Part shown: piece by piece, positions 2,159 through 29,942 of the stretch
Position numbering within the stretch: the first letter of the stretch is position 1
Layout of the letters: each line of letters opens with the position of its first letter
DNA from: a virus
Length of the DNA stretch: 31,922 nt
Reading direction: 5' to 3' (one strand)
Virus record (IMG/VR): IMGVR_UViG_3300020175_000022
Coordinates: 1 to 31,922 of that record
Notes under the pieces: generated by a model
What the model saw: the letters and a program-made list of their open reading frames with translations, nothing else
What the model was told of the DNA's origin: nothing
The model's database searches: none
Position numbers and translations under genes: made by a program

Positions 2159-2366
2159 AGTAGCTAAAGAAGCAATTGTAGATTCTGAAGATGATTTATC
2201 TGCGGATAGATTGAAAAATGCTGCGGCTACTAAAAAATTAGCAATATTCGATGCGTTTGAAATACTAAACAGAATTGAAGCTGAAGAAAATATATTAAAC
2301 GAGAATCCTAAAGAAGAAACTAAAGAAAAGTCTTTTAAAGGTTTCGCAGAAGGCAGGTCTAAATGA
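2091..2366 (+). CDS. Small helical protein, candidate small terminase subunit
   Basis: A 91-residue protein if started at the ATG at 2091; in-frame ATGs at 2043 and 2073 would lengthen it but overlap the previous gene more. Even from 2091 it overlaps that gene by 68 bases. It is predicted to be mostly helical, with QAGQKAVEELIKVAKEAI, then DLSADRLKNAAATKKLAIFD and AFEILNRIEAEEN, followed by a charged tail. Its stop overlaps the start of the large terminase by 4 bases (ATGA at 2363-2366). Size, helical content and the position directly before TerL fit a small terminase subunit, which would recognise phage DNA for packaging. No helix-turn-helix is obvious, so this is a position-based guess. Confidence 0.45.
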   Translation: MNTKETKLNIIQAGQKAVEELIKVAKEAIVDSEDDLSADRLKNAAATKKLAIFDAFEILNRIEAEENILNENPKEETKEKSFKGFAEGRSK

Positions 2367-4585
2367 TTTACGAACAAGCATTAGTAAAAATACTAAAAGA
2401 CTACATAAAGCCTCATACATTAAAAAAAGAAAACAGATACAAGAAGTGGGAGTATGGATATAATAAAGATCATGATATAGTTATTATATCTAAGACAGGT
2501 AAGATTGGTGAAGTATATGAAATACAAGGTTTAAAAATAGCACTACCATTAGCTGAAAATAGCTATAAAAGATCTAATGATAAGTTAGAACAAAAATGGG
2601 AACATTTAGAGCAGCCTAAAGAATTAAGTAAAATAAAATCAGTATTTGACTGGGAAGAAAGACCTAGTGAATTTAAAAACAAATGGTATGACTATATTGA
2701 CGAAGAGTTTAAAAGAAGGGAAGAAGGTTTTTGGTTCAATAATAAAGGTAAGCCTACTTATATTACTGGTACTCACTACATGTACTTGCAGTGGTCCAAA
2801 ATTGATGTTGGGCAGCCAGACTTTAGGGAATCAAACAGATTATTCTATATCTTCTGGGAAGCTTGTAAAGCGGATGTACGGTGTTACGGAATGTGTTATC
2901 TTAAGAACAGACGGTCAGGTTTCTCTTTCATGGCATCAGGCGAGACGGTTAATCAGGCAACAATATCCACAGATTCAAGATTTGGCATTTTATCAAAGTC
3001 AGGGCCAGACGCCAAAAAGATGTTTACTGATAAGGTCGTCCCCATTTCGGTTAATTACCCCTTCTTCTTCAAACCAATCCAGGACGGTATGGACAGGCCG
3101 AAGACAGAACTCGCGTACAGGGTACCCGCGTCAAAGTTTACCCGTAAGAAACTCGACACCAACGAACAACTTAAGGAGATCACCGGTCTCGATACAACGA
3201 TCGACTGGAAGAACACCGGGGACAACTCGTACGATGGTGAGAAACTAAAACTACTAGTACACGATGAAAGTGGAAAGTGGGAAAAACCAACAAACATATT
3301 AAACAACTGGAGGGTAACTAAAACTTGTTTAAGATTAGGTTCTAAAGTAATAGGTAAGTGCATGATGGGTAGTACATCAAATGCTTTAGATAAAGGTGGT
3401 GATAATTTTAAAAAATTATATTATGATTCAGATGCCACAAAAAGAAACGCCAATGGACAAACTCGCTCAGGATTATATTCTTTGTTCATACCTATGGAAT
3501 GGAACTACGAAGGATACATTGATTCTTATGGACTTCCTGTCTTCGAAACGCCTAACAAACCGACTAAAGGGCCTCAAGGTGAATTAATCGATACAGGTGT
3601 AATAGAATATTGGGAAAACGAAGTTGAAGGATTAAAGAGTGATCAAGACGGTTTAAATGAATATTATCGTCAGTTTCCAAGAACAGAGAATCATGCGTTT
3701 AGAGACGAAACAAAACAATCTTTATTTAATTTAACAAAGCTATACGAGCAAATAGATTACAATGAAGATGCACAAAGAAATGGCTTAGTAACTGTTGGCA
3801 GCTTTCAATGGAAAGACGGTGTTAAAGATAGCACTGTAGAATTTATGCCTAACAAAAGCGGTAGGTTTAAAATCAGTTGGGTTCCTAAGTTAGAAATGCA
3901 AAATAGAGTTAGATTAAAAAATGGTATAAAATATCCAGCAAATGATCACGTTGGTGCATTTGGATGTGATAGCTATGATATATCAGGAACTGTTGATGGC
4001 ATAGGATCTAATGGGGCATTACATGGATTAACTAAATATTCAATGGAGGAAGCTCCTGCTAATAGTTTTTTCTTAGAATATGTTGCAAGACCTCAAACAG
4101 CTGAAATATTTTTTGAAGATGTACTAATGGCTTGCGTGTTTTACGGAATGCCTATATTAGTTGAGAACAATAAACCTCGACTTTTATATCATTTCAAAAG
4201 AAGAGGGTATCGAGGCTATTCAATGAATAGACCAGATAAAACTTATAATAAGCTTTCAATAACAGAAAAAGAAATTGGTGGAATACCAAACTCTTCAAAC
4301 GACATAAAACAATCTCACGCTGCGGCTATAGAATCATACATAGAAAAATACGTGGGTAGAATAAATGACGGCTACGGAGATATGTATTTTAGCAGAACCC
4401 TAGAAGATTGGGTTAAGTTTGATATAAATAACAGAACAAAGTTTGATGCGTCGATTAGTTCAGGTTTAGCTATTATGGCTTGCAACAAAAACCTTTATGC
4501 TCCAACGCAAGAAAGAAAAGTTAAAAGTATAAATCTTGGGATAAAAAGGTATGATAATAAAGGGCACAGATCTCAAATAATATAA
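2363..4585 (+). CDS. terL: Large terminase subunit (packaging ATPase and nuclease)
   Basis: A 740-residue DNA packaging motor subunit. It would cut concatemeric phage DNA and pump it through the portal using ATP. The ATPase half shows a degenerate Walker A-type segment around KNRRSGFSFM (181-190) and a Walker B LLVHDE with D301 and E302. The nuclease half shows the first acidic strand GAFGCDSYD (D536, D539) and a later acidic site SNDIKQSHAAA (D647). Segments such as SKSGPDAKKMFTDKVV and FFFKPIQDGMD recall crAss-like and related marine Bacteroidota phage terminases. It overlaps the candidate small subunit by 4 bases and is followed by the portal gene after 4 bases. The DNA from about 2870 to 3240 is clearly richer in G+C than the rest of the gene (see findings). 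Confidence 0.92.
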   Translation: MIYEQALVKILKDYIKPHTLKKENRYKKWEYGYNKDHDIVIISKTGKIGEVYEIQGLKIALPLAENSYKRSNDKLEQKWEHLEQPKELSKIKSVFDWEERPSEFKNKWYDYIDEEFKRREEGFWFNNKGKPTYITGTHYMYLQWSKIDVGQPDFRESNRLFYIFWEACKADVRCYGMCYLKNRRSGFSFMASGETVNQATISTDSRFGILSKSGPDAKKMFTDKVVPISVNYPFFFKPIQDGMDRPKTELAYRVPASKFTRKKLDTNEQLKEITGLDTTIDWKNTGDNSYDGEKLKLLVHDESGKWEKPTNILNNWRVTKTCLRLGSKVIGKCMMGSTSNALDKGGDNFKKLYYDSDATKRNANGQTRSGLYSLFIPMEWNYEGYIDSYGLPVFETPNKPTKGPQGELIDTGVIEYWENEVEGLKSDQDGLNEYYRQFPRTENHAFRDETKQSLFNLTKLYEQIDYNEDAQRNGLVTVGSFQWKDGVKDSTVEFMPNKSGRFKISWVPKLEMQNRVRLKNGIKYPANDHVGAFGCDSYDISGTVDGIGSNGALHGLTKYSMEEAPANSFFLEYVARPQTAEIFFEDVLMACVFYGMPILVENNKPRLLYHFKRRGYRGYSMNRPDKTYNKLSITEKEIGGIPNSSNDIKQSHAAAIESYIEKYVGRINDGYGDMYFSRTLEDWVKFDINNRTKFDASISSGLAIMACNKNLYAPTQERKVKSINLGIKRYDNKGHRSQII

Positions 4586-4589
4586 ATAA

Positions 4590-7010
4590 ATGATTAATAA
4601 AGCTATAAAAAGTTCTTTTCCAAGCCAAGCGGTTAGCGATATAGAGAAAATGAGTGCTGAATACGGAGCACAAGTTGGTAGAGCTATAGAGCACGAGTGG
4701 TTTAATTCTAAAGACGGATACAACGGTAGGAGTGGGTCAGGTAGATATTCTACGTCTAGACAGTCTTTTCACTCTTTAAGATTATACGCTAGAGGAGAAC
4801 AGTCTGTTAGAAAATATAAAGATGAATTATCTATCAATGGAGATTTATCTTACATGAACCTAGATTGGAAACCTGTGCCAATTATACCAAAGTTTGTTGA
4901 TATTGTTGTTAACGGTATGGCAGATAGGTCATACGAAATAAAAGCTTATTCACAAGACCCTGCTTCAATACAAGAAAGAACAGATTATGTAACTAAGATA
5001 GCTGAGGATATGGCAGCTAAACCGTTTAACGACGCAGTTGCCGGACAATTAGGTATTGATATATACCAAACAGATCAAACCAAGTTACCCGAAACATCGG
5101 AAGAACTTGAAATACACATGCAGCTTGAATACAAGCAAGCAATTGAAGTTGCTGAAGAAGAAGCAATAAACAGTGTGTTTGATAAAAACAAATACGAATT
5201 AGTATCTAGACGTGTAAAAAGAGATTTAACCGTTATAGGTATTGGTGCTGCTAAAAGTTCATTTAACAAAGCAGAAGGTATTAAAGTAGAGTATGTGGAT
5301 CCAGTTGATCTTGTATACTCAAATACAGACTCGCCTTACTTTGATGATATATATTATGTAGGTGAAGTAAAAGAAATATACACCAATGAGCTTAAGAAAG
5401 AATTTCCTGAGTTAACAGATGAGCAGTTGGAATCTTACCAAGGATACAATACATCTTATACAAACAGCGGGTATAACTCTAAATCAAATGAAAGCAATAG
5501 CATATCTGTTCTATATTTTGAATATAAGACCTATGCTACTCAAGTACATAAAATAAAGAAAACGTCTACCGGAGGTAGTAAAGCTATTGAAAAAAATGAC
5601 ACCTTTAATCCACCGGCTAATGATGACTTTGAAAAAGTTGATAGAGCTATAGAAGTAATATATGAAGGCGTTAAAGTTATAGGTAGTAGTGACATACTTA
5701 AGTGGGAACTTAAGAAAAATATGATAAGACCTAAAGCAGATACTACAAAAGCTCAAATGAGTTATGCTATCTGTGCACCTAGAATGTATGAAGGCAGAAT
5801 AGAATCTTTAGTTAGTCGTATGACTAATTTTGCGGATATGATTCAACTGACACACTTAAAGTTACAACAAGTATTATCTAGAGTGGTACCTGACGGTGTT
5901 TATTTAGACGCTGATGCTTTAGCTGAAATAGATTTAGGTAACGGAACAAATTATAATCCTCAGGAAGCATTAAACATGTATTTCCAAACTGGTAGTGTTA
6001 TTGGTAGATCAATGACGCAAGACGGTGATATGAACAGAGGAAGACTACCTATTACTGAATTAAATTCAAACGGTGGTAACAATAAAATAAACGCACTTAT
6101 AAGTACATACAATTATTACTTACAAATGATGCGTGATGTAACTGGTTTAAACGAAGCTAGAGATGGCGGAATACCAGATAAGAATGCTTTAGTAGGTCTA
6201 CAAAAAATGGCCGCAGCAAATTCTAACACAGCAACAAGGCACTTATTGCAATCAAGCTTGTATATAACCCTAACAATGGCAGAGTGTATTGCAATGCGTG
6301 TTTCTGATGTTATAGAATATTCACCGACTAAAGAGTCTTTTATAAAAACATTAGGTAAGTTTAATGTATCTACGTTAGAAGAAATGGCTAATCTGCATTT
6401 ACATGATTTTGGTATATTCTTGGAATTAACACCAGATGAAGAAGAAAAAGCAAAGCTTGAAAACAATATACAAGTAGCCTTACAATCTGGTCAGATATAT
6501 TTAGAGGACGCTATAGAAGTTAGAGAAGTGCGTAATATAAAATTAGCTAATCAGCTTCTTAAAATACGTAGAAAAAAGAAACAGCAATTAGATCAAGAGC
6601 AACAACAAAGAAACATTCAAGCTCAAACGCAATCTAATACACAATCAGCTCAAGCAGCAGCTCAGGCTGATATGCAAAAGCAACAAGCGCTAACAGAATC
6701 TAAAGCCCAGTTAGAGCAAATAAAAAATCAATTAGAAATAGCTAAGATGGAAAGAGAAGCAGCTATAAAGAAAGAATTGATGGAACACGAGTTTAATTTA
6801 AACATGCAACTACAAGAAATGCAGTTAAAGCAGGTAAATGACAAGGACAAGTTTAAAGAAGACCGTAAAGACGAAAGAACTAAAATACAAGCCTCACAGC
6901 AAAGTGAGCTCATAGATCAAAGAAAAAATAATGCGCCGCCCAAAAGTTTTGAATCCGCAGGAATGGATAACTTAGGTGGATTTGGTCTTGAGCAATTTGA
7001 ACCAAGGTGA
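4590..7010 (+). CDS. Portal protein
   Basis: An 806-residue protein directly after terL, the usual place for the portal, the dodecameric ring through which DNA enters and leaves the head. Conserved-looking segments include SLRLYARGEQSVRKYKDEL and LDWKPVPIIPKFVDIVVNG near residues 55-105, which I recall from crAss-like and related marine phage portals, and a long helical region with REVRNIKLANQLLKIRRKKK. From about 655 to 770 it is a Gln/Lys/Glu-rich coiled coil (QQQRNIQAQTQSNTQSAQAA and following), longer than in compact portals and possibly the barrel that projects into the capsid. The C-terminus is Gly-rich. No nuclease or protease motif is seen. The call rests on size, position and remembered family segments. 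Confidence 0.85.
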   Translation: MINKAIKSSFPSQAVSDIEKMSAEYGAQVGRAIEHEWFNSKDGYNGRSGSGRYSTSRQSFHSLRLYARGEQSVRKYKDELSINGDLSYMNLDWKPVPIIPKFVDIVVNGMADRSYEIKAYSQDPASIQERTDYVTKIAEDMAAKPFNDAVAGQLGIDIYQTDQTKLPETSEELEIHMQLEYKQAIEVAEEEAINSVFDKNKYELVSRRVKRDLTVIGIGAAKSSFNKAEGIKVEYVDPVDLVYSNTDSPYFDDIYYVGEVKEIYTNELKKEFPELTDEQLESYQGYNTSYTNSGYNSKSNESNSISVLYFEYKTYATQVHKIKKTSTGGSKAIEKNDTFNPPANDDFEKVDRAIEVIYEGVKVIGSSDILKWELKKNMIRPKADTTKAQMSYAICAPRMYEGRIESLVSRMTNFADMIQLTHLKLQQVLSRVVPDGVYLDADALAEIDLGNGTNYNPQEALNMYFQTGSVIGRSMTQDGDMNRGRLPITELNSNGGNNKINALISTYNYYLQMMRDVTGLNEARDGGIPDKNALVGLQKMAAANSNTATRHLLQSSLYITLTMAECIAMRVSDVIEYSPTKESFIKTLGKFNVSTLEEMANLHLHDFGIFLELTPDEEEKAKLENNIQVALQSGQIYLEDAIEVREVRNIKLANQLLKIRRKKKQQLDQEQQQRNIQAQTQSNTQSAQAAAQADMQKQQALTESKAQLEQIKNQLEIAKMEREAAIKKELMEHEFNLNMQLQEMQLKQVNDKDKFKEDRKDERTKIQASQQSELIDQRKNNAPPKSFESAGMDNLGGFGLEQFEPR

Positions 7011-7020
7011 TAAATTTTTA

Positions 7021-7044
7021 ACTATTTAATTATATTATATTATG
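7021..7044 (+). repeat. Repeated AT-only leader, copy 1 (before scaffold gene)
   Basis: The 24 bases from 7021 through the ATG of the scaffold gene match 10175-10198, before the 276-residue gene, at all but one position (T versus A at the seventh base). Both copies end TTATATTATATTATG exactly at a start codon. No other start in the window carries it. It may be a translation initiation element. Confidence 0.7.
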
Positions 7045-15993: not shown

Positions 15994-16033
15994 TTATTAA
16001 TAAATAAATAAATAAACACGTAATATTATTATT

Positions 16034-17446: not shown

Positions 17447-17452
17447 TAAATT

Positions 17453-18457
17453 ATGAGTATAGGTATGATAGGCGTGCAAGTTTTAGGTGGCCTTGGGCAA
17501 GCTATATTAAGCGGTGCAGCTAGAAGAAAAGCAGCTAGAAGAGAAAAAGCTTTACAAAAACAACTTTATAGGTTAGAACAAAACAGGCAGGCTATTGTCA
17601 ACCCTTTTGCAGATGTAACAGATTTATCAAGTCAATTGTCAAATCCGTTTGCAAATCTACAAGTTGCAACAGAGGCAGCAGAAATGCAAGCTCAGCAAAC
17701 AGATATATCGCTCGCTAGCAGTTTAGATACATTAAGAGCCACAGGAGCTGGAGCCGGTGGAGCCACTGCGCTTGCACAGGCAGCTTTAAGTTCTAAACAA
17801 GGTGTTTCAGCCAGCATAGCGCAACAAGAGGCTAAAAACGCACAATTAAGAGCTCAAGGGCAGCAGCAATTAGAAATGAATAGAATGAAAGAGCAGCAGC
17901 GAATTCAAATGGCTATGGCTCAAGGTAAGCAATTTGTGTTTGGAGCTCAAGAATCTAGGGAAATGCAAAAATTAAATAGAGTATCTGCTCAATTAAGTAA
18001 CGCCTCTCAACAATCAGCAGCTTATGGTTCTCAAATGATGGGTGGTATTGGTCAAGCACTAGGCGGTATTGGTAGTTTTGCTGCAACAGGAGGTTTTGGT
18101 CAACTATTTGGAGGCAATAACTCAACCGGTTTTGCAGACGCTGTGAGTAATAACAACATGTTTAATGTAAATAGCTCAAATACAAATTTAATCCCTCCTA
18201 CAAGCAATGATTTAGGTGCTTATGCCTCAGGGATCTCAGACCGTAGATTAAAAAAGAATATAAATAAAATAGGTAGATCACAAAGTGGTTTAAATATATA
18301 TAGTTTTGAATATATTGATAAGTCTTTTGGTAGAGGTACATGGCAAGGTGTTATGTCTGATGAAGCTCCAAAAAATGCTGTTATTAAAAACTTTTCAAGT
18401 ATATATGACGGGGTAGACTATTCTAAGATTGACGTTGAATTTAAACTAATTAAATAA
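17453..18457 (+). CDS. Ejection-type virion protein with C-terminal S74-like chaperone domain
   Basis: A 334-residue protein with two unlike parts. Residues 1-260 are Ala/Gly/Gln-rich: a hydrophobic opening (MSIGMIGVQVLGGLGQAILS), a basic helix (AARRKAARREKALQKQLYRL), a Gln-rich coiled coil, and glycine-rich stretches (GGIGQALGGIGSFAATGGFG). This resembles small internal virion or ejection proteins (T7 gp14, P22 gp7 class). Residues 262-334 begin SDRRLKKNINKIG and continue NIYSFEYIDKS and GVMSDEAP, the hallmark of the S74 intramolecular chaperone, in which the Ser of the SD..LK motif (here S262) is the self-cleavage nucleophile. Such domains usually cap trimeric fibres. The gene is 6 bases after the nozzle C-terminal gene. 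Confidence 0.75.
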   Translation: MSIGMIGVQVLGGLGQAILSGAARRKAARREKALQKQLYRLEQNRQAIVNPFADVTDLSSQLSNPFANLQVATEAAEMQAQQTDISLASSLDTLRATGAGAGGATALAQAALSSKQGVSASIAQQEAKNAQLRAQGQQQLEMNRMKEQQRIQMAMAQGKQFVFGAQESREMQKLNRVSAQLSNASQQSAAYGSQMMGGIGQALGGIGSFAATGGFGQLFGGNNSTGFADAVSNNNMFNVNSSNTNLIPPTSNDLGAYASGISDRRLKKNINKIGRSQSGLNIYSFEYIDKSFGRGTWQGVMSDEAPKNAVIKNFSSIYDGVDYSKIDVEFKLIK

Positions 18458-18459
18458 AA

Positions 18460-20181
18460 ATGGCAAGACGACAACAAACAAGAACATCTGGTGGAGCGTA
18501 TCAAAATCCAACAGAAGGTATAGTAGACTACGGCGCTTTTAGTCAGGGTTTTGAAAAAGGTTTAAAACCAGGGCTTGACTTTCTAAAAGAGCAGGAAAAA
18601 GAAAAAAAAGCTTTAGACGAAGAAGCAGAAAAAATACAGCTTGACACAAATGTTGAGGTTTTTGGAGGAATAAACAAAAACGCAATGACAGGAGGTGATG
18701 ATTTAAAAACCAATGATTTATTTACAGACAACGCTGGAATTGCAATGAGTTCTTTTAGACCGCAATATATTGATGCATTTAAAAAGAAAGATCAAGGAAA
18801 AATGAATGCAATACTTAGACAAATTGGCGACGTTAAAAATAGCTATTCTAATTTATCTGGGTATATTAAAAGAATTGGAGACAATGCAGTAAATGATGGT
18901 GTTGTTTCTAATACTAGATTTATAAATGAAAATAAAGAACAAATTGAATTTAACGGAGCTGATTTCACTAATTTAAACAATAATAGTCCAAACGCTATAA
19001 GGCAAGGTTCTAAAACAAATAAATACGGTAAAATTAAACAAGGATTTTACGTAATGTCAGGGGGTAAAGAAATGTTTTTGAATACACAAGACATGGATGA
19101 AGCTTATCTTAATAGAAATTTTAAATTAAAAGATAACTTACAGGCTAGCATAAATGAAAGCGTGGGAACTAAAGGTATTACTAGCGCTTTTAATAGAACT
19201 CCTGACTACAATACTGCAAATAACAAAACAATTACAATAAAAGATAGCAACAACAAAACAATCACTACAACTGTTCAAGATTCTACTAAATATATAACTG
19301 ACGGATTCTATTCAAGAGCAGAAACAGCTGCAAATACTTTTGCTTTAAATAAATATTCTACTGATGATGAAGCTTTTTTCGAATCAGGATGGAGCCAATT
19401 TACTAAAGATACAGGGTTTACCCTACCTGAAGATTTACAAAAAGAGTTAGGAGATAAAAATTACAGAGACCCTAAAACGGCTGCCGATCTTGATGATAAT
19501 TTAAAAATTAGAATTATGCAAGACTATGCGGCTGAAAAATGGAAAATATCGGTTGCTAATAAAGGTTATACAACAGGAGAAGACGGTAGAGCTTTAAAAC
19601 TTAATCAAGTTACATTTAATCAAGGGAGAACCTCTACTAGAAAACCAAACGAGCCTAGCAACAATGAAAAAAATATAGCACTAAATATAAAAAATGCATT
19701 AACTGGAAGTTTAACAGATGTAAAAAATAATTTATTTTCAGAAAAAGTAAATGTTACTCTTTCACCCACAACTACAGTGCCTGTTAATTTTAAAAATACT
19801 GATGGAAAAAAATTTAATCCTGCTTTAAGCGAAAACTTTACAGGGGGTAAAACATTAACAGGTATTCAGTTTACGGTTGGAGGCCTTGTAGACAGTGAAG
19901 GTAATAAAATGGCTGATACGGAAATTAATTACGATTTTAGTTTGTTGGAAAAAAGCGACGTTAGCGGATCTAATAGGTTAAGTCTTGAACATTATTTAAT
20001 AGATAAATACGGACCGGGCAATGAATCTATTATTCGAGAGCAAATAAAAGCTGAAAAAGATAGAAGAAAAAATTATTGGATAACAAATGTATATAGAAGT
20101 AATCCAGATAATAAAGATAAAACAGAAGACCAAGCGTTTCGAGCGTATCTAACAGAATTAAAACAACTTAGACCAAATTAA
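18460..20181 (+). CDS. Unknown virion-type protein, candidate ejection/cargo protein
   Basis: A 573-residue hydrophilic protein lying between the S74-tailed protein (2-base gap) and the giant gene (5-base gap). The basic N-terminus (MARRQQTRTSGGAYQNPTEG) is followed by GAFSQGFEKGLKPGLDFLKE and a charged coiled-coil piece (EKEKKALDEEAEKIQL). The rest is Asn/Lys/Thr-rich without TM segments or recognisable catalytic residues, and beta-rich stretches with Thr repeats occur around 250-270. In podoviruses three consecutive large genes after the tail tube usually encode proteins ejected with the DNA; this is the middle of such a trio here. That is the basis for the guess. I do not recognise a family. 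Confidence 0.65.
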   Translation: MARRQQTRTSGGAYQNPTEGIVDYGAFSQGFEKGLKPGLDFLKEQEKEKKALDEEAEKIQLDTNVEVFGGINKNAMTGGDDLKTNDLFTDNAGIAMSSFRPQYIDAFKKKDQGKMNAILRQIGDVKNSYSNLSGYIKRIGDNAVNDGVVSNTRFINENKEQIEFNGADFTNLNNNSPNAIRQGSKTNKYGKIKQGFYVMSGGKEMFLNTQDMDEAYLNRNFKLKDNLQASINESVGTKGITSAFNRTPDYNTANNKTITIKDSNNKTITTTVQDSTKYITDGFYSRAETAANTFALNKYSTDDEAFFESGWSQFTKDTGFTLPEDLQKELGDKNYRDPKTAADLDDNLKIRIMQDYAAEKWKISVANKGYTTGEDGRALKLNQVTFNQGRTSTRKPNEPSNNEKNIALNIKNALTGSLTDVKNNLFSEKVNVTLSPTTTVPVNFKNTDGKKFNPALSENFTGGKTLTGIQFTVGGLVDSEGNKMADTEINYDFSLLEKSDVSGSNRLSLEHYLIDKYGPGNESIIREQIKAEKDRRKNYWITNVYRSNPDNKDKTEDQAFRAYLTELKQLRPN

Positions 20182-20186
20182 ATTTT

Positions 20187-23100
20187 ATGACATTAGAAGA
20201 ATACATTAATAGCTTAATAGACCAAGGTTTTTCAGAAGAAGAAATTGATGAAAAAGTTAGACAATACAGAGAAAACGGCAATGTAGTACCTGAAGCCGAA
20301 GAAAATATAGAGTCTGAAGAAACAAATTTTACAGACAGCAGTGCAGCGGGTGCGGGTGTTCTGCGTGTAAACGAACCAGCGCCATTCACGGAGGCTCAAC
20401 AAGCTTTAATGAGCGAGGAGTTAACTTTTCCGGAGGAAACAATAGAGATAGATACGGAATTGCCTTTGGTAAATATTTCTTCGGATTCACAAGATCCTGA
20501 TCCCAAAGAAGAATATAAGACTCCTGAAATTTTAGCTTTAGAAAAACAACTAGATAAAGCTAAGGAAGATTACAGAAGCGGAATTAGTGGCAGTAATTTA
20601 TCTGACTATACAGGTAAAATAAAAGACATTGAAGACAAGATAGCTATAGAGACTAAGCGTGCTTTTAGCGGAGGTGTGGACTTAAGTAATCCGTATGCAC
20701 TTGCAAATATTGATGAACAAAAGTTTATAGAAATAGTTAATAAAGAATTTAAAGGAGCTGTTGATATTCAAGAAACTCCTGATGGACTTAATTTTGCTAA
20801 AGACGAAATAACATACACAAACCCTTTTACAAAAGAAAAAATTATAATAAATTTTGAAAATGATTCAAAGGAGGGTAGAATTAAAACTGCTAATCAAATA
20901 AAACAATTAAAAAAGACTTTTGACTACGATTTTTCAAAAAACGAAGTTACGTCAGTAGATCTTGATAAAAAAGACGTGTTACTAAAAGAGTCTATTTTTT
21001 CTAGAAATTACGACAACAGCCCTAAGCAAAATGTAGAATCGTTAAATTTTAGATTAAAAGGTACAGGGTATACTATTGAAGGCGAGTTTCGAGGAGGAGA
21101 AAGACAAGGCAGCAATGAATTAGGTGTAAATGACTATAGAATATATAAAAACGGCGAGTTAATTTCTACTGAAAGATCTTTTGACGATGCTAGGAATTGG
21201 TTTAAATCAAACATATCTGATGAAGACTTTAAAGCAACTCAGGATAATATATACGCTGCCTATAGTGATCTAAAAGAAACGCTTAATGAAACTAATCCTA
21301 GTGAGTTAAAAAAAGTTGAAGAAAGCAATGATACTAAAAAATCTTATTTATCTTCTGGTACTTTTATTGATAATCTTTCTAGTGAGTTAACAAAAGAGGG
21401 ATACGGTCTTAGCGAAGACGAGGTTGAAGAAATAAAAACTGTTTTAAACGATAATATTGCTAAAGGATTTTTTTCTAAGCAGTCAGGCGCTCCTTTAGGT
21501 ATGCCCGCACCCTCTAAAGCCGTCTCTCCCAAAGAGATGTACGCAAGATATACTAATTTAGCAGGGCTTTCTGACGATTTAAAAAACAAAATTAATCCAG
21601 AAGTTTTAGAAGAAATATACAAAGAAGGCTATAAAAAATACGCAAAAGGAGTTTCAGATTCAAACATTCAAACTATATGGGAAGGTATTGTTGATGCTTC
21701 TGGTCAAAAAAATCTTATAGCTGCAGGTACTATTCTTGAATCAATGGAAGAAGCGGATGTTGAAAATAGTTTCAAAGACAGAGCTGATATTATTTCTAAA
21801 ACTCAAAATACCCAATCCAACGTTTTAGGCTCAATGCTTGAAAACTTAGCAGCCGAAGCAAAAGGAATTAATGTAGGTTACTCGATGGAAGCCTCTAAAG
21901 ATACAGGTATAAAATTTACATGGGACGACTCTAAGACAACCGATAAAGAAGCTGCTAAAAAACTTTTTTCAAAGTGGCAAAAAATACAAAAAACATACTC
22001 TCAATTTTCAGATGAACAAGAGCTAGCGATTGCTTCATTAAATTCTGACTATTTAAAACACATAGACAAAACCAGTAATCCGGGTATAACCCCAAAACAA
22101 ATACTAAATTTAACGTCAAAGACTTATAATCCTGGCAATATCCTTGCGAATGATATTTCCACGGCTCTTTACGGAACTTACTTAGCTTTACCTACAGCTT
22201 TTGGAGGTAAAGTTTCTAAAGAAAAAGCTATAGAAGAGCAAAAAATGCTTGACAATAGACAAAGTGCTTATGAAACCCAGTTAACTTATGAGCAAGCTTT
22301 AGATCAGGGTAGATTTGGCTTTTTTGCAACAAGAACAGGGGCTCAGCAAAGTGTTAATGTTGCTATGGCAATGGGTACTAGCTATCTAGGAGCTGGACTA
22401 AAAGTAGCTCCTTGGTTGTCGCGTTTAACAGTTAGTGCTGAGTTTGGTATTTCTTCAGGTGCTCAAAAAAGTAGAAACTTAAATATTTTAGTTGACAATA
22501 AAGAAGAGGCTGAGGAAAGTTTAAAAACTTTAAAAAATCTTTATGATAATAAGTTAATTTCAAATTTAGAATATCAAAACAGGCAAGCTGGGCTTCATGA
22601 AGTTATTGCTATGGGTGACATGACGGATAACCAAATACTGTTATCTTCTTGGGGAACAGGTCTTATTGAAGCTGGTGTTTCCTATGTTGCTGGTACAAAT
22701 GTCAACGCTCAAAAAGTTATTAAAGATTTAGCTATAAAACAAGGTTCTAAAAACGTTGCTTTAGGCGGTTCAAGTGTTAATGTGTTAAGTTTTTTTGAAA
22801 GAAACGGTCTAGAAAAGTTTGGTATTGCAAGCAAAGAATGGGGTAAAAGAGCATTAGGCGAGCTAGCGGAAGAAGGTACAATACTTATTGGGGATGTTGC
22901 TTTAGATAGTGCTATTTTAGGTAGAGATTTTGACTTAAGCGAGCTAGACGATACATTAGTTACAGCCTTAATCACTACAGGAGGGATGAACACGCCTTCT
23001 ATAATGTACAACTCTTTGATGACTAATGCGTTAACAAAAAAACATGAAGAAACATTAAGGCTACCGATTAACCGAATAAGCGATATAACCAACAGCCTAA

Positions 23101-26100
23101 AAGATCCCGACTTGAGTTCTATTGTTAAAGAAAACTTGAGAGCTCAATTAGTACAGGAGACTAAAGATCTTGGATTTGTTGTAGCAGGTATTGAAATAGA
23201 TGCTTTAGCTTTAAATGGAGAAAATCACAGAAGGTTAATTGGTTTAGAGTTTTTTAAGCAGCAAAGGTTAGCCGAAGCAGGAGTTAAAGCCGGAGATACA
23301 AAAGAAGTTGTAGATCAAAAAATAGAGAATTATACTGCTTCATTGAAAAGAACAGGCAAAAATAACCAAGCTGATGGTTTTTCGCAAGATTTAAAACAAA
23401 TACAAGATTCACAAGAATCAATAAAACAAAACATTGATTATTCTATTGTTGAAGAAAACTTAGGAGAAGAAGGGGAAAAAATAAAAAATAGATGGTCACA
23501 AAAATCAAACAAAAGCAAAATAAGTAAAAAATACAAAGCAGCAGATCAAAGGGGCAAGCTAGCACTTATTCTTGAAGAAATAAGAAGAACTACTGTAAAC
23601 GGTTATGTAAATGAAGCTAAAAATGATGACAATACTCGTGATAGAGTAGAGTCAATGACTTACACAGACGGAATCAGTAAAGGTAAGCCTTTAACAAAAA
23701 AAGATAAAGAAAAAGAATATTTTAAGACAGGAGCTAACAAGCTTTTTATGGTGTCAACAGCTGCTACAACAAAAACTATAAGTAGAAAAAGAGCAGATGA
23801 GTTTGCAAAACGAACAAATATTGAGCTAGTAAAAATAGACCCTACGAAAAAAGACGATAAAGGTAATATTTTAGGATTAAATCAATATAACTTAAATCTA
23901 GATCAACAAAGAAAAATAGAAGAAACCGTAGGTGATTCAGATTTTAACGGTGTAATGATTGAAACTCAAGATGGCCCTAAGTTTTTAGTAACTAACGAAA
24001 GCGAAGTAACTCAAAAAAGATTAGAAAGCGGAGATATTTTTGTAGGATCAGTAGAGATCCACGAGATGACTCATGCTTCTGACGATGCTTTATTTTCTTC
24101 TGCCCAAGCAAAAGAGTATAGGAATAACTTATATACAGAAGCGAGCACCAATAAAAATCTAGAAACAGCTCATTCTATAACTATGCAAACCTTGTTTGGT
24201 AGAACTGGAAAAAACGCAGACGGCACTGACGTAGACTCTGATTTAAGCGGTGATGCTAAATATTTTGACGAAAACGGGAGGTTAACTAACTGGGAGGCTA
24301 CTTCAGATACCTTTAAGGATGAATATACTAATCACCTACAAGAAGTTGCTTTTAATTTTGAAAATACTTTTGGCTTAGAATCTTCTAGAAAAAAAGAAAG
24401 TTATTTTACAAGGAAGTTTAAAAAGAGCGCAGACGTATCTACTCCTAAAAAAGCACTAGACTATTTATTAAATCGTAATGCTGATCTTAGATCTGGTAAT
24501 TTTAGTAGTCAAGTTTTAAACGCTATTAATAAATCAAAAAAAGAAGGTGATAGCAAGTCTGTTACTCTGTTTACTCAAGAGTTAGCTACTATAAAAGAAA
24601 ATGAATTTGACTACGAGCCTGGAGAGTTTGATGCTCTTGTACGTAATTTAGAGTTTAAAATTAAGAACGCTAAGAAAAAAGAAGCAGCAGCTCCTAAAAC
24701 AAAAGACAAAACTAAAGCTAAAACTGATTCTAAAAAAAATAAAAAACCCTTAGGCGATCAATTTGATGAAATGGTACCTAAAGGCACTACTAAAAAAGTA
24801 TATGCAGAAACTATAGCAGGAAAGGTTGTGGAAGAAATTAACAAGGGCATATTAAATCCTTTGATAGTAAAGATTGCAGCAGGTTACGGTATTGTTAATT
24901 TAGACAATATTTACGGTAAAAATCTAGATGATTTTATTAAAGATGTTATTAGCGAGCAGTTCATAAGAAACATAATGAATTATGATCCTTTAGCGGCAAA
25001 CAAAAGTCTTGGGGGTTACATTATAGCTGGTCCATACGGTATAAGAAATAGAGTTAAAGAAGCTTTAATTAAAGGAAAGAAAGAAGCAGCAGCTGGATCC
25101 GGTGTGGGGCTAGATAAAGCAAAGAATGTTACATCTAGAGAAGATTCAGCTTCTCAAGAAGCCGAAAAAAGAAAATACACACCGTTTACTAGAAGTAACA
25201 TTGTACCTAACTTTACAATAACCGCTATAACAGGAAAGTTAACACAAGTTTTAGCTAGCCTAAAAAGTAAGATTACAGATAAAAGAGGTGACAACTCTGC
25301 TACAACACCTTTAGTTGCGGAAATAAAAAAGAAAATAGGTAAAGTTGTAGGAGACCCTGAAGCAGCTCCTAAACTTGTTATTCAAAGATTAGGTAAGCTA
25401 AAGGATGGTACTTATGAGAAAAATCTTATAAAAAATAAGAAAGCTATCATAGAAAACATGACCACTACTTTTTTAATGGGTAAAGATACCAAAAAAGAAG
25501 TTATAGGTGGTATCCCTATGGCTATTGAAAAATCCGTAGGAGGATCTTTTAGGGTAGACGAAAACGGAAACAGAGTGAAGGTAACTGTTAATATAGGTGG
25601 TAAAAACGTTGTTCAAGATGTGTTTGATCCAAAATTTATACCATACCCAGACTGGGTTGGCCAGGAAATTGATCGTGAAAAAACATTAGTTAGGGGTGCT
25701 ACTGCTGGAAATCAAATAGTTAGAAGAGTTTCTGCTGATGAAGTTTCCGATGCTGACTTTGTGGGTTTATTTATTGACGAAAAAGGTAAACTTATTAGAG
25801 GAAAAAGAGAAGCTTTAGGTAAAGCGATAGCTGAAGAAATAGCTTTTGAAATTTTTAGCAAAGAAATTCAAAATGAAAATTCAGATATAAGCAAGGCTTT
25901 TGAAGCAAACCAAGAAGTTTTAAAAGCAGCTTTAGCTGACAATTTTGTTAATGTACTGCTAAAAGACATAGAAAGAGGTACAGTTAAGTTTAGCAAAACT
26001 TATATAACAGGTTTTAATGTTTTTGATAACAAAGTTCGTAATGTTATAAAATATATTTCTATTAATAATATAAATCCTTTAAGTATCACTGCTCAGGAAG

Positions 26101-29100
26101 ACGAAGTCTTTAAAGATATGATGGACGATCTTAAAGAATCGTACTTAGAATTTAAACAAAAAACTAACAATGATGAGCTTTTTGAAGGTAAAAATTTAAC
26201 TACCGCTCAAAAAGAACAACTTAAAAAATGGAACAAAAGTAGTGGCGTTAGTTTTTCTAACTATATAAACAATGTAGTAGATTATAATTTTAGCTATGTT
26301 GAAGGTATATTAGGAGTGCCTCATGGAGCCTCTAATTTGAAGGCTGACGGGGCAAAGCTAGCTGGCGAAAAAACTATATCAAATTATTATAATCATTTAG
26401 TAGACATCGGCACATCTAACCCTCAGGAAGTGTTTTTAAGAACACTAAGAGGCTGGTCTGTTAGCGGATTAGGAAGAAGTATATTTGGTAATAATAAAGG
26501 TCTGCAAGAGTTTATAACAAAAAATGAAGTTTTAAAAAATGCATTTGCAGGGTATACTTTAGAAAAAACTAAAACAGGTACTGGATTGACTATAAAAGCG
26601 GCTTCGGGTAAAAAAGCTGTTAACCCTGTGCTTATTCAAGAGGTTAAAGACGATTTAAGTAAAACTGTAGATTCTGGCACCAATGAAGTAAATCTTGATG
26701 GTAGAAAAAAATTATCGGATCAATCCGCTGAAGACTTAAAAAGATTTAGTGAGTTTTTAAAAAACGGTAATGCTGGTAGTAATTTAGGAAAAGCTGTAAT
26801 TTTAAATACTATAAATTCTAACATGCGTAGTATTTTGAAAACAGTTTCCGAGGTAAAAGGAATTATGGCTGTTGATGGTTTACCTGCTTTTAACGAAGAA
26901 GGGAAGTCTAACTACACTCTAGAACATGGAACTCCTGTTAAGCAATTACGAAACTCAATTGCTAATTTTATTAGCGACAAGGACCTTTCTTATGAAAATT
27001 CTGTAGGCAAAATAGTAGAGACTAGTTACACTTATGTGGTTCCTACGGAGGTTTCAAAAGCTATAGACGCTAACTATAGGGACGTTTTTCCCGGGCAAGA
27101 TTGGGTTGACATGAAAGAACCTTTCAAAGCTAGGTTTAACTCTAAAGCGACTCAGGATCTATTAAAAGAAAAAGGGTATAATCAAACGTTCGATGACATA
27201 ACTCAATTAAACAGCAAAACAGTTAATGTTCCCAAGCAGACTAAATTTTCTTCAGGATTTAAAAAATCTGTAACAACACAATCTGCAATTGATATTGCTA
27301 CTAGTTTAGATTATAATAAAAATCCTAAAGGAATTAGTGTTTGGGATTTTGATGATACCTTAGCTACAACTAAAAGCAACGTATTATACACTATGCCTGA
27401 TGGCACTAAAGGAAAAATTAACGCTACTGAATTTGCTTTAAGAAGCGAAGAACTATCAAAAGAGGGCGCTGAATTTGATTTTAGTGAATTTAGTAAAGTG
27501 ATGAAAGGTGCTGAGGGCCCTATGTTTAATAAAGCAATGGCTAGAAATGAGAAGTTTGGTAATAGAAATGTATTTATATTAACAGCTAGGCCAGCCGATT
27601 CAAAATATGCTATACATGAGTTTTTGAAAGGTATTGGCCTTGATATTAAACTTGAAAACATTGTAGGACTCGGAGATGGCACTGCTAAAGCAAAAGCTGA
27701 TTGGATGATCGGTAAAGTAACCGAAGGGTATAATGACTTTTATTTCGCGGATGATGCTATTAAAAATGTCGATGCAGTTAAAGATGTCTTTGATAATTTT
27801 GATGTAAAAGGAAAAGTTCAACAAGCTAAGGTTAAATTCAGTACAACATTGAGTACTAAGTTTAACCAAATGATAGAAAGAAAAACTGGACTTCCTGCTT
27901 CTGATAAAATTGAAAAAATGGCAGGCAGACAAATGGGTAAAGGTAAAGGAAGGTTTAAAGTATTTATAAGTCCTTCAGCTGAAGATTTCAGAGGTTTAAC
28001 CCAGTATGTTTTTGCAGGCAAAGGTGAACAAGGAGAAGCTGATCAAAAGTTTTTTGAAGAGGCTTTAATGGATCCCTATTTTAAAGGGGTTTCTGCTATA
28101 GAGGCTGCCAATGTTGAAATGAAAACAGAGTTAAAAGCTTTATATAAAAAGTTTAAAGGTATAAAAAAGAAATTAAAAAAGAATACAGAAAACAAAAACT
28201 TTACTAACGATCAAGCTGTTAGGGTTTACCTTTGGACTAAAGCTGGTTACAAAATACCCGGCATTTCTAAGCAGGAACAAAAAACATTAAACGAGACGGT
28301 AAAGGCCGATGAAGAGCTTCTAAGGTTTGCTGAATCATTATTAATATCTACTAAAAAAGAAAAGTGGGGAAAACCTAATCAGTATTGGGATACTCAAACT
28401 TTATTAAACGATATACAAACTTTAACGGAAAAAATTAACAGAAAAGAGTACATAAAAGAATTTATACAAAACGCAGAGTTAATATTTAGCGAACAAAACC
28501 TAAACAAAATAGAAGCAAGCTTTGGAGCATCTACAAGAAATGCTATAGAAGATTCTTTATACGCTATGAGAACAGGTAGTAATAGAACTGTTGGTCAAAA
28601 CCAAATAGATAATAAGTGGATGAATTGGCTTAACAACTCTATAGGTTCTATAATGTTTTTTAACAGAAAATCAGCATTACTGCAGACGCTTTCTACCATG
28701 AATTTTATTAATTGGCATGACAATAATCCAGCTAAAGCAGCACTAGCGTTTGCCAATCAACCTCAGTTTTGGAAAGACTTTGTGTTTTTATTTAATTCTC
28801 CTAAATTAAAAGAAAGAAGAGGTGGTTTAAAATCTGACATACAAGAAGCTGAAATTGCAAACGCAGCTAGAGGTTCTAAAAATAAGGCTTCTGCAACATT
28901 AGCTTATTTATTAAAAATTGGTTTTACGCCAACGCAGATAGCTGATAGTTTTGCAATTGCCGCTGGAGGTGCAACGTTTTATAGGAATAGAATAAATACT
29001 TATTTAAAAGAAGTAAATGCTGATGGTGAAAAAATTTACACTAAAAAGCAAGCAGAAGAAAAAGCATTTTTAGATTTTTCAAAAACGTCAGATATTTCTC

Positions 29101-29942
29101 AGCAATCAGGTGATCCAGCATTAGTCTCCCAACAGCAAAGAAGCATTGCGGGGCGTCTTATATTAGCTTTTCAAAATTACCCCATGCAGTCAGCTAGAAT
29201 TCAAAAAAAATCTGCTCAAGATCTTTTGAATAGAAGAGGTGATCCTAAAGAGCATTTAAGCAAAATACTATACTATGGAGCTATACAGTCATTATTGTTT
29301 AATACTCTTAGTAATGGTTTATTTACTCTATTCCCTGGTTTTGACAACGAAGACGACGAAGAAAAAATAAAAAAGGACAGCGAAAAAAGAATAAATAAAG
29401 CGATGAAAGGTATGTTAGACTCTGCAATACGAGGTACTGGTATATACGGAGCTGTTGGAACTAATATTAAAAACACATACAAAATGTATGTAAAGCAAGA
29501 AGAAAGAGGGTCTTTTAAAGCTGATCATGCTTACACTTTATTAGAGGCTTTAAATTTATCTCCGCAGATAGGGTCTAAGGCTGCTGATTTTTACTCAGCA
29601 ATACAAACAAGAAGATTTAATAAAAAAGTTATAGAAAAACACCCGTGGAGTATAACTATAGATGGCAAATTTAATCCATCACCTAATTACGACATAGCAG
29701 GTAGTTTAGCTTCTTCGTTTTTTAACTTACCTTTAGATAGGATGTTGGTTGAAGCTAAAGGGGTTGCCGAAATGTTAGACAAAAGAAACACTCAAATGCA
29801 AAGATTGTTTTTAGCTTTAGGTTTTAGAGCATGGGATGTCAACGCTCCTAACGAAGAGTTTAAATTAATTAAAGAAAAACGTAAATCAGGAGGCCTAAAG
29901 ATTAAAAAAATAAAAGTTAAACAAACAATAAAAGTTAAATAA
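20187..29942 (+). CDS. Giant polyvalent internal virion protein with zincin motif and HAD phosphatase module
   Basis: A 3251-residue protein, about 30% of the window, uninterrupted. The acidic N-terminus is followed by a hydrophobic region near 717-745. A zinc-metalloprotease motif HEMTH occurs at 1292-1296. A Lys/Ala linker near 1495-1521 follows. A complete HAD module has WDFDDT (D2387, D2389), LTARPAD (T2466) and FADDAIKNVD (D2522, D2523). A domain with FISPSAEDFRGL comes next. The C-terminal third holds IGFTPTQIADSFAIAAGG, FQNYPMQSARIQ and a hydrophobic stretch near 3027-3053 before an acidic/basic end. KFS tripeptides at 1934, 2353 and 2550 flank the HAD module. Position after the tail genes, size and mixed enzymes fit an ejected core protein (T7 gp16 role). 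Similar modules occur in marine phages as I recall; no substrate can be named. Confidence 0.8.
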   Translation: MTLEEYINSLIDQGFSEEEIDEKVRQYRENGNVVPEAEENIESEETNFTDSSAAGAGVLRVNEPAPFTEAQQALMSEELTFPEETIEIDTELPLVNISSDSQDPDPKEEYKTPEILALEKQLDKAKEDYRSGISGSNLSDYTGKIKDIEDKIAIETKRAFSGGVDLSNPYALANIDEQKFIEIVNKEFKGAVDIQETPDGLNFAKDEITYTNPFTKEKIIINFENDSKEGRIKTANQIKQLKKTFDYDFSKNEVTSVDLDKKDVLLKESIFSRNYDNSPKQNVESLNFRLKGTGYTIEGEFRGGERQGSNELGVNDYRIYKNGELISTERSFDDARNWFKSNISDEDFKATQDNIYAAYSDLKETLNETNPSELKKVEESNDTKKSYLSSGTFIDNLSSELTKEGYGLSEDEVEEIKTVLNDNIAKGFFSKQSGAPLGMPAPSKAVSPKEMYARYTNLAGLSDDLKNKINPEVLEEIYKEGYKKYAKGVSDSNIQTIWEGIVDASGQKNLIAAGTILESMEEADVENSFKDRADIISKTQNTQSNVLGSMLENLAAEAKGINVGYSMEASKDTGIKFTWDDSKTTDKEAAKKLFSKWQKIQKTYSQFSDEQELAIASLNSDYLKHIDKTSNPGITPKQILNLTSKTYNPGNILANDISTALYGTYLALPTAFGGKVSKEKAIEEQKMLDNRQSAYETQLTYEQALDQGRFGFFATRTGAQQSVNVAMAMGTSYLGAGLKVAPWLSRLTVSAEFGISSGAQKSRNLNILVDNKEEAEESLKTLKNLYDNKLISNLEYQNRQAGLHEVIAMGDMTDNQILLSSWGTGLIEAGVSYVAGTNVNAQKVIKDLAIKQGSKNVALGGSSVNVLSFFERNGLEKFGIASKEWGKRALGELAEEGTILIGDVALDSAILGRDFDLSELDDTLVTALITTGGMNTPSIMYNSLMTNALTKKHEETLRLPINRISDITNSLKDPDLSSIVKENLRAQLVQETKDLGFVVAGIEIDALALNGENHRRLIGLEFFKQQRLAEAGVKAGDTKEVVDQKIENYTASLKRTGKNNQADGFSQDLKQIQDSQESIKQNIDYSIVEENLGEEGEKIKNRWSQKSNKSKISKKYKAADQRGKLALILEEIRRTTVNGYVNEAKNDDNTRDRVESMTYTDGISKGKPLTKKDKEKEYFKTGANKLFMVSTAATTKTISRKRADEFAKRTNIELVKIDPTKKDDKGNILGLNQYNLNLDQQRKIEETVGDSDFNGVMIETQDGPKFLVTNESEVTQKRLESGDIFVGSVEIHEMTHASDDALFSSAQAKEYRNNLYTEASTNKNLETAHSITMQTLFGRTGKNADGTDVDSDLSGDAKYFDENGRLTNWEATSDTFKDEYTNHLQEVAFNFENTFGLESSRKKESYFTRKFKKSADVSTPKKALDYLLNRNADLRSGNFSSQVLNAINKSKKEGDSKSVTLFTQELATIKENEFDYEPGEFDALVRNLEFKIKNAKKKEAAAPKTKDKTKAKTDSKKNKKPLGDQFDEMVPKGTTKKVYAETIAGKVVEEINKGILNPLIVKIAAGYGIVNLDNIYGKNLDDFIKDVISEQFIRNIMNYDPLAANKSLGGYIIAGPYGIRNRVKEALIKGKKEAAAGSGVGLDKAKNVTSREDSASQEAEKRKYTPFTRSNIVPNFTITAITGKLTQVLASLKSKITDKRGDNSATTPLVAEIKKKIGKVVGDPEAAPKLVIQRLGKLKDGTYEKNLIKNKKAIIENMTTTFLMGKDTKKEVIGGIPMAIEKSVGGSFRVDENGNRVKVTVNIGGKNVVQDVFDPKFIPYPDWVGQEIDREKTLVRGATAGNQIVRRVSADEVSDADFVGLFIDEKGKLIRGKREALGKAIAEEIAFEIFSKEIQNENSDISKAFEANQEVLKAALADNFVNVLLKDIERGTVKFSKTYITGFNVFDNKVRNVIKYISINNINPLSITAQEDEVFKDMMDDLKESYLEFKQKTNNDELFEGKNLTTAQKEQLKKWNKSSGVSFSNYINNVVDYNFSYVEGILGVPHGASNLKADGAKLAGEKTISNYYNHLVDIGTSNPQEVFLRTLRGWSVSGLGRSIFGNNKGLQEFITKNEVLKNAFAGYTLEKTKTGTGLTIKAASGKKAVNPVLIQEVKDDLSKTVDSGTNEVNLDGRKKLSDQSAEDLKRFSEFLKNGNAGSNLGKAVILNTINSNMRSILKTVSEVKGIMAVDGLPAFNEEGKSNYTLEHGTPVKQLRNSIANFISDKDLSYENSVGKIVETSYTYVVPTEVSKAIDANYRDVFPGQDWVDMKEPFKARFNSKATQDLLKEKGYNQTFDDITQLNSKTVNVPKQTKFSSGFKKSVTTQSAIDIATSLDYNKNPKGISVWDFDDTLATTKSNVLYTMPDGTKGKINATEFALRSEELSKEGAEFDFSEFSKVMKGAEGPMFNKAMARNEKFGNRNVFILTARPADSKYAIHEFLKGIGLDIKLENIVGLGDGTAKAKADWMIGKVTEGYNDFYFADDAIKNVDAVKDVFDNFDVKGKVQQAKVKFSTTLSTKFNQMIERKTGLPASDKIEKMAGRQMGKGKGRFKVFISPSAEDFRGLTQYVFAGKGEQGEADQKFFEEALMDPYFKGVSAIEAANVEMKTELKALYKKFKGIKKKLKKNTENKNFTNDQAVRVYLWTKAGYKIPGISKQEQKTLNETVKADEELLRFAESLLISTKKEKWGKPNQYWDTQTLLNDIQTLTEKINRKEYIKEFIQNAELIFSEQNLNKIEASFGASTRNAIEDSLYAMRTGSNRTVGQNQIDNKWMNWLNNSIGSIMFFNRKSALLQTLSTMNFINWHDNNPAKAALAFANQPQFWKDFVFLFNSPKLKERRGGLKSDIQEAEIANAARGSKNKASATLAYLLKIGFTPTQIADSFAIAAGGATFYRNRINTYLKEVNADGEKIYTKKQAEEKAFLDFSKTSDISQQSGDPALVSQQQRSIAGRLILAFQNYPMQSARIQKKSAQDLLNRRGDPKEHLSKILYYGAIQSLLFNTLSNGLFTLFPGFDNEDDEEKIKKDSEKRINKAMKGMLDSAIRGTGIYGAVGTNIKNTYKMYVKQEERGSFKADHAYTLLEALNLSPQIGSKAADFYSAIQTRRFNKKVIEKHPWSITIDGKFNPSPNYDIAGSLASSFFNLPLDRMLVEAKGVAEMLDKRNTQMQRLFLALGFRAWDVNAPNEEFKLIKEKRKSGGLKIKKIKVKQTIKVK

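Follow-up and report, generated by a model that had tools for sequence, protein, structure and literature searches.

The window analyzed here is a 31,922-base IMG/VR virus record, probably a fragment, that encodes a giant protein (P0001). The first-pass annotation had described one unbroken reading frame holding HEMTH and the motifs of a haloacid dehalogenase-type (HAD) phosphatase, and this description was confirmed: the frame starts with ATG and has no internal stop codon. The giant is the last gene of the structural module, a position shared with its counterparts in Cellulophaga and Elemovirus phages. A GroES-like gene, the terminase, the portal and structural genes of the Cellulophaga-phage type lie on its 5' side and an endolysin gene on its 3' side, and such company of late virion and packaging genes is that of a polyvalent protein. 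The features discussed below are listed in Table 1. The GroES-like co-chaperonin gene (1532-2158) adjoins the terminase, as it does in Cellulophaga phages. PHROG_14478, a long structural protein of Cellulophaga phages, is split across two reading frames of 1087 and 470 aa (12730-17446), which match its start and a later part, respectively.

Table 1. Coordinates of the giant protein, its predicted modules and selected neighboring genes in the window
Feature	Coordinates	Strand	Basis or remark
Terminase large subunit	2363..4585	+	PHROG_6681, E 1e-168
Portal protein	4590..7010	+	PHROG_6547, E 4e-142
Virion structural protein family, 334 aa, neighbor of the giant	17453..18457	+	PHROG_6121, E 7e-7; cysteine-free
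Candidate ejection partner, 573 aa	18460..20181	+	position equivalent to phi40:1 gp100 (MS/MS protein); cysteine-free
Giant protein P0001	20187..29942	+	3251 aa; cysteine-free, polyvalent, probably ejected virion protein
N-terminal virion/ejection module (putative), aa ~430-1182	21474..23732	+	132.9 bits against family HMM made without the window
Zincin-like metallopeptidase domain, aa ~1185-1430	23739..24476	+	invariant residues and AF2 model
HEMTH, predicted zinc-binding/catalytic motif, aa 1292-1296	24060..24074	+	sole HExxH
E1379, predicted third zinc ligand	24321..24323	+	invariant in 71/71; helix 233-250 of model
Sigma-70 region-2-like domain, aa 1535-1710	24789..25316	+	32.1 bits, HMM made without it
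Conserved block, aa ~1700-1940	25284..26006	+	conservation; mostly high AF2 pLDDT
HAD phosphatase domain (predicted), aa ~2376-2545	27312..27821	+	D2387, D2389, T2466, K2503, D2522, D2523
Conserved C-terminal helical module, aa ~2590-3220	27954..29846	+	identity and BFVD fold matches

The terminase of the window was 65.6% identical to that of an uncultured Manatee Spring podovirus and 46% identical to those of Flavobacterium elemo phages, with lower values for Cellulophaga phages. The giant is encoded by a marine phage, and an uncultivated podovirus of the flavobacterial-phage type is the best explanation of its source. A genome-contig search for the host returned metagenome-assembled contigs from mixed bins, many of them Bacteroidota, which is too weak for a host claim.

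Whole-protein searches against Pfam, PHROG and PDB sequences gave almost no matches, and family profiles were needed; the sub-threshold Pfam matches RPM2, DUF5386 and cwf21 were discarded as chance. About 160 uncultivated relatives were compared. Scanning IMG/VR with a C-terminal alignment yielded at least 504 confirmed stretches, with 80 loci read, and a second scan with the HAD domain left out of the query yielded 584 stretches and 80 loci, showing a large lineage of more than 500 IMG/VR loci. No isolate carrying the giant's C-terminus was found. Tblastn of the GenBank phage records with this C-terminal part gave a single weak match, a stand-alone HAD protein, and the lineage therefore has no isolate in that collection.

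The N-terminal module was compared with proteins of cultured phages by using a family HMM, which scored the elemoA giant at 146 bits, phi38:1 gp101 at 116, phi46:3 at 111 and phi13:2 gp127 at 108, whereas the best of 500 shuffled decoys reached 20.5 bits. Both phi40:1 gp101, which is 99.9% identical to phi38:1 gp101, and phi18:3 gp123 are annotated with 'experimental MS/MS proteomics analysis'. By these profile scores, the family shares homology over its N-terminal third with MS/MS-proven virion proteins of Cellulophaga phages. An HMM made from three of the phages placed 15 members clearly above decoys, the window protein not being among them, and the window's own N-terminal link to isolates is thus a transitive one through its family.

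The giant contains no cysteine, a property it shares with 73 of 78 family giants and with the elemoA, phi38:1 and phi13:2 homologues. The three genes directly 5' of it also lack cysteine, whereas the terminase has eight. N4-like virion RNA polymerases are likewise devoid of cysteine, which has been linked to their passage through the tail and an oxidizing periplasm (PMC3715699, PMC2784036), and the missing cysteine therefore provides independent support for ejection. Together with the virion homologues, it suggests that the giant is probably carried inside the virion and ejected into the bacterium. P0001 would then be the phage's largest ejection protein, packaged in the capsid and passing through tail and envelope as infection begins, with its N-terminal ~1,100 residues forming the virion or ejectosome part. 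The three upstream genes (470, 334 and 573 aa; 16034-20181) differ in their lack of cysteine from most window genes of similar size, and a 398-aa gene at 7042-8238 is likewise without cysteine.

The zincin domain was recognized from its catalytic residues and predicted fold. HEMTH is the sole HExxH in the giant, with about 0.006 expected from composition, and HExxH was aligned in all 71 non-redundant relatives that reach the zincin region. In alignment A6 (64 sequences, aa 1142-1960, 819 residues), whose members are 12-33% identical to the window protein, the only invariant residues were H1292, E1293, H1296 and E1379. The AF2 model built on A6 placed HEMTH within a helix that spans model residues 148-161 at a pLDDT of about 90 and is preceded by beta strands, and E1379 in a second helix, whereas a loop position of HEMTH was what the first-pass annotation had named as speaking against a zincin. 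This HExxH helix followed by a conserved Glu in a later helix defines zincins, and polyvalent zincins have been described with the same arrangement of strands and helices (PMC5512222). Fold neighbors of the model were weak, the best multi-element ones being lethal-factor-like (Z about 6 over ~180 residues, rmsd 5 Å); such scores are too low to carry an assignment by themselves but agree with the tie of polyvalent zincins to this same fold through HHpred (Iyer et al., PMC5512222). No Pfam zincin family reached its cut-off in the window protein, and Foldseek searches of the PDB with both large models, whose results were swamped by helical proteins, gave no match below E 0.001. The model and the residue conservation support a real zincin domain, which is near-universal in the family: HExxH was present in 70 of 71 full-length loci of the set found without a HAD query.

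Between the zincin and HAD domains, many members carry the pattern DEIETG..GI..LI..Y.PE.G.PLAAYI....R. A profile of this region made without selection (A5, aa 1500-1960) matched sigma factors in five of its seven PDB-sequence matches (best E 0.003), and they were four of the top nine for the larger profile A6 (best E 0.019). Profile A10, made from 27 members picked by motif, gave mostly sigma factors among the 20 matches listed (best E 5.9e-6), and the PDB match runs beyond the picking motif. Profiles from other regions gave no sigma matches in the PDB. The HMM by which the window's domain was scored (Table 1) had been made without both the window and a second relative (L126); its top decoy among 500 reached 7.1 bits, and 98 of 151 giants exceeded that value. 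Pfam Sigma70_r2 remained below its cut-off in one relative (L148; 19.3 versus 24 bits) and had no match in the window, where the AF2 model of the stretch has low pLDDT (about 57-70). These profile matches indicate that a sigma-70 region-2-like domain likely lies between the zincin and HAD domains, and it may dock on host RNA polymerase. The whole-length Pfam scan of the window gave no match to sigma-70 region 4, which recognizes the -35 element. The adjoining block at aa 1700-1940 is an alpha+beta structure with a confident model, kept in close relatives and without a family match.

The HAD domain was recognized from a complete set of motifs (DxDxT, T/S, K and DD) on a predicted Rossmann fold. 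The first-pass annotation had listed D2387, D2389, T2466, D2522 and D2523, all of which were found in place, and K2503 supplies the motif III lysine that completes the set. The catalytic residues were invariant in 69 sequences (alignment A4). The model containing the domain had a mean pLDDT of 78.5, and nearly all of the 50 matches listed for it by VIA-align were HAD proteins (Z 7.5-10.3). The best was the phosphatase of T4 polynucleotide kinase/phosphatase (PNKP; 2ia5_D) with Z 10.3 and an rmsd of 3.0 Å over 121 residues, at only 11% identity and with other HAD phosphatases within about 1 Z unit. PHROG_415 (polynucleotide kinase; E 1.9e-5) matched 28 of 33 members. No Pfam HAD family reached its cut-off in the window protein, and an NCBIfam scan of the window gave no match. 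These models support a real HAD fold, and a PNKP-like role is favored by the T4 PNKP fold match together with PHROG_415. A stand-alone 187-aa relative of the domain occurs in a 462-kb uncultured phage (L118, 2962-3522; LR756500.1).

Next, we focused on the slot preceding the C-terminal module in 71 full-length loci, which were gathered without the HAD domain in the query and include some near-duplicates. The slot held a HAD domain in 48 loci, a HAD domain with a nested kinase in one, a P-loop kinase alone in six, a HAD-like domain with altered motif I in three, and other or no recognized content in 13. The kinase scored above the cut-offs of AAA_33 and Zeta_toxin, and in L075, L079, L083 and L150 a kinase of this type lies inside the HAD domain, at the cap position after motif I. 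The HAD domain is thus interchangeable, whereas the zincin is fixed. Members with different slot contents have C-termini up to 82% identical, showing that payload exchange is recent. In a further relative (L029, ~aa 2240-2400), the HAD cap carries an inserted domain with YYHGTS...GLGKHYT, which looked ADP-ribosyltransferase-like by eye and had no Pfam match.

Across the whole C-terminus, relatives are 43-64% identical to the window protein, and the last ~650 residues fall within the most conserved part of the giant. The first-pass annotation had assigned hydrophobic segments to this end, which the analysis did not bear out: the best 19-residue Kyte-Doolittle mean past residue 2560 was 1.02, well under that of a transmembrane helix, and the region was modeled as a helix bundle. 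A transmembrane C-terminus was therefore rejected. Foldseek searches of BFVD matched the C-terminal model to uncharacterized relatives and then to pieces of phage proteins at 10-16% identity (E to 7e-13), including ones annotated as ART-PolyVal, a large polyvalent protein associated domain (LPD), a nuclease and the Gundel_1 structural protein. By fold, the giant thus appears to group with polyvalent proteins containing ART-PolyVal or LPD domains. The Pfam LPD and PolyVal families gave no match in the window protein at cut-off, and the C-terminal profile showed no sequence link to Pelagibacter phage HTVC027P gp85 or phi13:2 gp127. In N4, the zincin-containing region is required for encapsidation (PMC5512222). 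The helical C2 part had no known homologue (PMC12633501). The ~650-residue helical module of the giant most likely serves packaging or threading.

The giant resembles polyvalent proteins (Iyer et al., 2017; PMC5512222) in joining unrelated catalytic domains in one chain (a predicted zincin and HAD, plus a kinase in relatives), in carrying a zincin, a common domain of the class, and in being encoded among late virion genes. The zeta-toxin-like kinase is also a known polyvalent domain (PMC5512222). In contrast, the main text of that study mentions 'phosphatase', 'haloacid' and 'sigma factor' zero times, and the HAD and sigma-like domains appear to be two domain types not found for the class in the literature searched. 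A payload kinase nested in a HAD cap also sets the family apart from known polyvalent proteins, as it does from T4 PNKP, where the kinase is N-terminal and sequential; in the giant's family, it is absent, alternative or nested. The closest virion proteins, phi38:1/phi40:1 gp101, phi18:3 gp123 and the 3,694-aa structural protein of Elemovirus, have a homologous N-terminal module and the same last-of-module position, and contain no cysteine where counted. However, the Cellulophaga homologues are 1,691-1,990 aa long and have neither HExxH nor HAD, and the elemoA giant contains HEIFH and lacks motif I of a HAD.

T7 gp16 is likewise the largest ejected protein, an analogy of position and size. The first-pass annotation had proposed that the zincin and HAD domains replace the T7 transglycosylase; neither Pfam nor PHROG matched that lytic transglycosylase in the giant, no gp16 sequence similarity was found, and the Cellulophaga homologues carry neither domain, so the proposal found no support. 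Its view of a polyvalent virion protein with real zincin and HAD folds, probably ejected, otherwise held up, except for the C-terminal segments; the annotation had overlooked a sigma-like domain, the missing cysteine and the exchange of the phosphatase among relatives.

Based on these data, we consider the giant to be, with reasonable confidence, an ejected polyvalent protein with a self-cutting zincin, a sigma-like part, an exchangeable PNKP-like HAD and a helical C-terminus. It would be packaged with its partners and ejected, after which the zincin would cut the chain and the sigma-like and HAD parts would reach the cytoplasm. Ejection is the firmest element of this sequence, cutting is held with moderate confidence, and the phosphatase substrate is the most tentative. 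The gluzincin-type metallopeptidase (HExxH...E) most likely cuts its own polypeptide, in the capsid or after entry, which would free the downstream parts. In the polyvalent class, the zincin is a hub with predicted self-processing (PMC5512222), and self-processing is at least as likely here as the attack on the host envelope proposed originally. Targeting of host envelope or cytoplasmic defense proteins appears rather unlikely. Zincins do act as effectors in other conflict systems (Iyer et al., PMC5512222), and sequences flanking the catalytic residues have diverged strongly (14-25% identity), as if chasing varied targets; yet a zincin in 70 of 71 loci beside a variable payload points to a processing step common to the family more than to a single host target, as Iyer et al. 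argue for polyvalent proteins (PMC5512222). The HAD domain, in its exchangeable slot, most likely dephosphorylates nucleotides or the ends of nucleic acids, thereby countering a nuclease-based or nucleotide-signal defense. An action on nucleotides or other small phosphomonoesters, for signal removal or on cell-wall precursors, instead of on nucleic-acid ends, is a real possibility that we place somewhat below even: sequence does not reveal the substrate of a HAD, the model reaches Z 8 against class C acid phosphatases, and the alternative occupant matches Zeta_toxin, whose members, where known, phosphorylate sugar precursors of the cell wall. On the other side, both the closest fold and the matched PHROG point to polynucleotide kinase/phosphatase, and the kinases nested in HAD are reminiscent of a kinase plus 3'-phosphatase, while TIGR01664 (DNA 3'-phosphatase) appeared in one relative only (L071), weakly (E 0.004) and far under its cut-off. 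Action on envelope proteins or DNA ends, the original proposal, is one option, beside zincin self-processing and HAD action on RNA ends or nucleotides.

That the domains are structural remnants with no enzymatic role, in a protein serving as internal scaffold or pilot, seems improbable. The Cellulophaga homologues are virion proteins without zincin or HAD, and some HAD copies have an altered motif I (L175, L187) or are partial (L125); however, the zincin catalytic residues alone are invariant in a fast-diverging stretch, and the HAD residues are unchanged in all 69 sequences. Resemblance to N4 gp50 (Schitoviridae; ~3,500 aa, ejected), which is also giant and cysteine-free, has an HExxH domain and ends in a large helical region of unknown fold (PMC12633501, PMC3715699), might suggest a virion RNA polymerase diverged past recognition, which we regard as very improbable. 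A polymerase was sought among PDB sequences with the protein and family profiles (aa 1142-1960 and 2345-3251), and neither N4 vRNAP nor any other polymerase was matched. The domain order also differs, as only the region with homology to virion proteins of Cellulophaga phages precedes the HExxH, not a ~1,100-aa polymerase. Unlike gp50, in place of a detectable T7-like polymerase domain, the giant has HAD and sigma-like domains, and its phage is related to Cellulophaga and Flavobacterium podoviruses, not to N4. A more speculative extension of the ejected, self-cutting reading, which we consider unlikely as it stands, is that the sigma-70-like domain, freed by the zincin, takes over host RNA polymerase for transcription from the earliest phage promoters, with the exchangeable phosphatase or kinase payload disarming host defenses, a 'bring your own sigma' counterpart of N4's 'bring your own polymerase'.

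The giant represents a real, well-conserved enzyme combination within a known protein class. Ejection combined with zinc-protease, sigma-like and phosphatase domains suggests that it may help the phage to take over the cell almost as soon as infection begins. Detailed knowledge of ejected giant proteins comes mainly from N4 and T7, and the present family adds an abundant uncultivated lineage with a fixed protease beside an exchanged or nested enzyme and a seemingly sigma-like domain. If the sigma-like domain acts as suggested, it would explain, in a way open to testing, how phages of this kind begin transcription when they bring no virion polymerase. The processing of polyvalent proteins by zincins, long a matter of conjecture, would likewise become directly testable; homologous virion proteins exist in cultured Cellulophaga and Flavobacterium phages.

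Two further observations concern the gene itself. In three relatives (L034, L062 and L084), the gene appears split between the zincin and HAD domains; this fission was dropped as a hint of a cleavage site, as the second reading frame has no clear ribosome-binding site and frame errors are likelier. The Manatee Spring phage MW202828, closest by terminase, was expected to encode a homologue, but its 3,859-aa giant (MW202828.1, 741-12320) failed the N-terminal HMM. This unrelated-looking protein carries two HExxH motifs (HEFGH twice), and its presence in the phage with the closest terminase suggests that whole giants are swapped among related phages.
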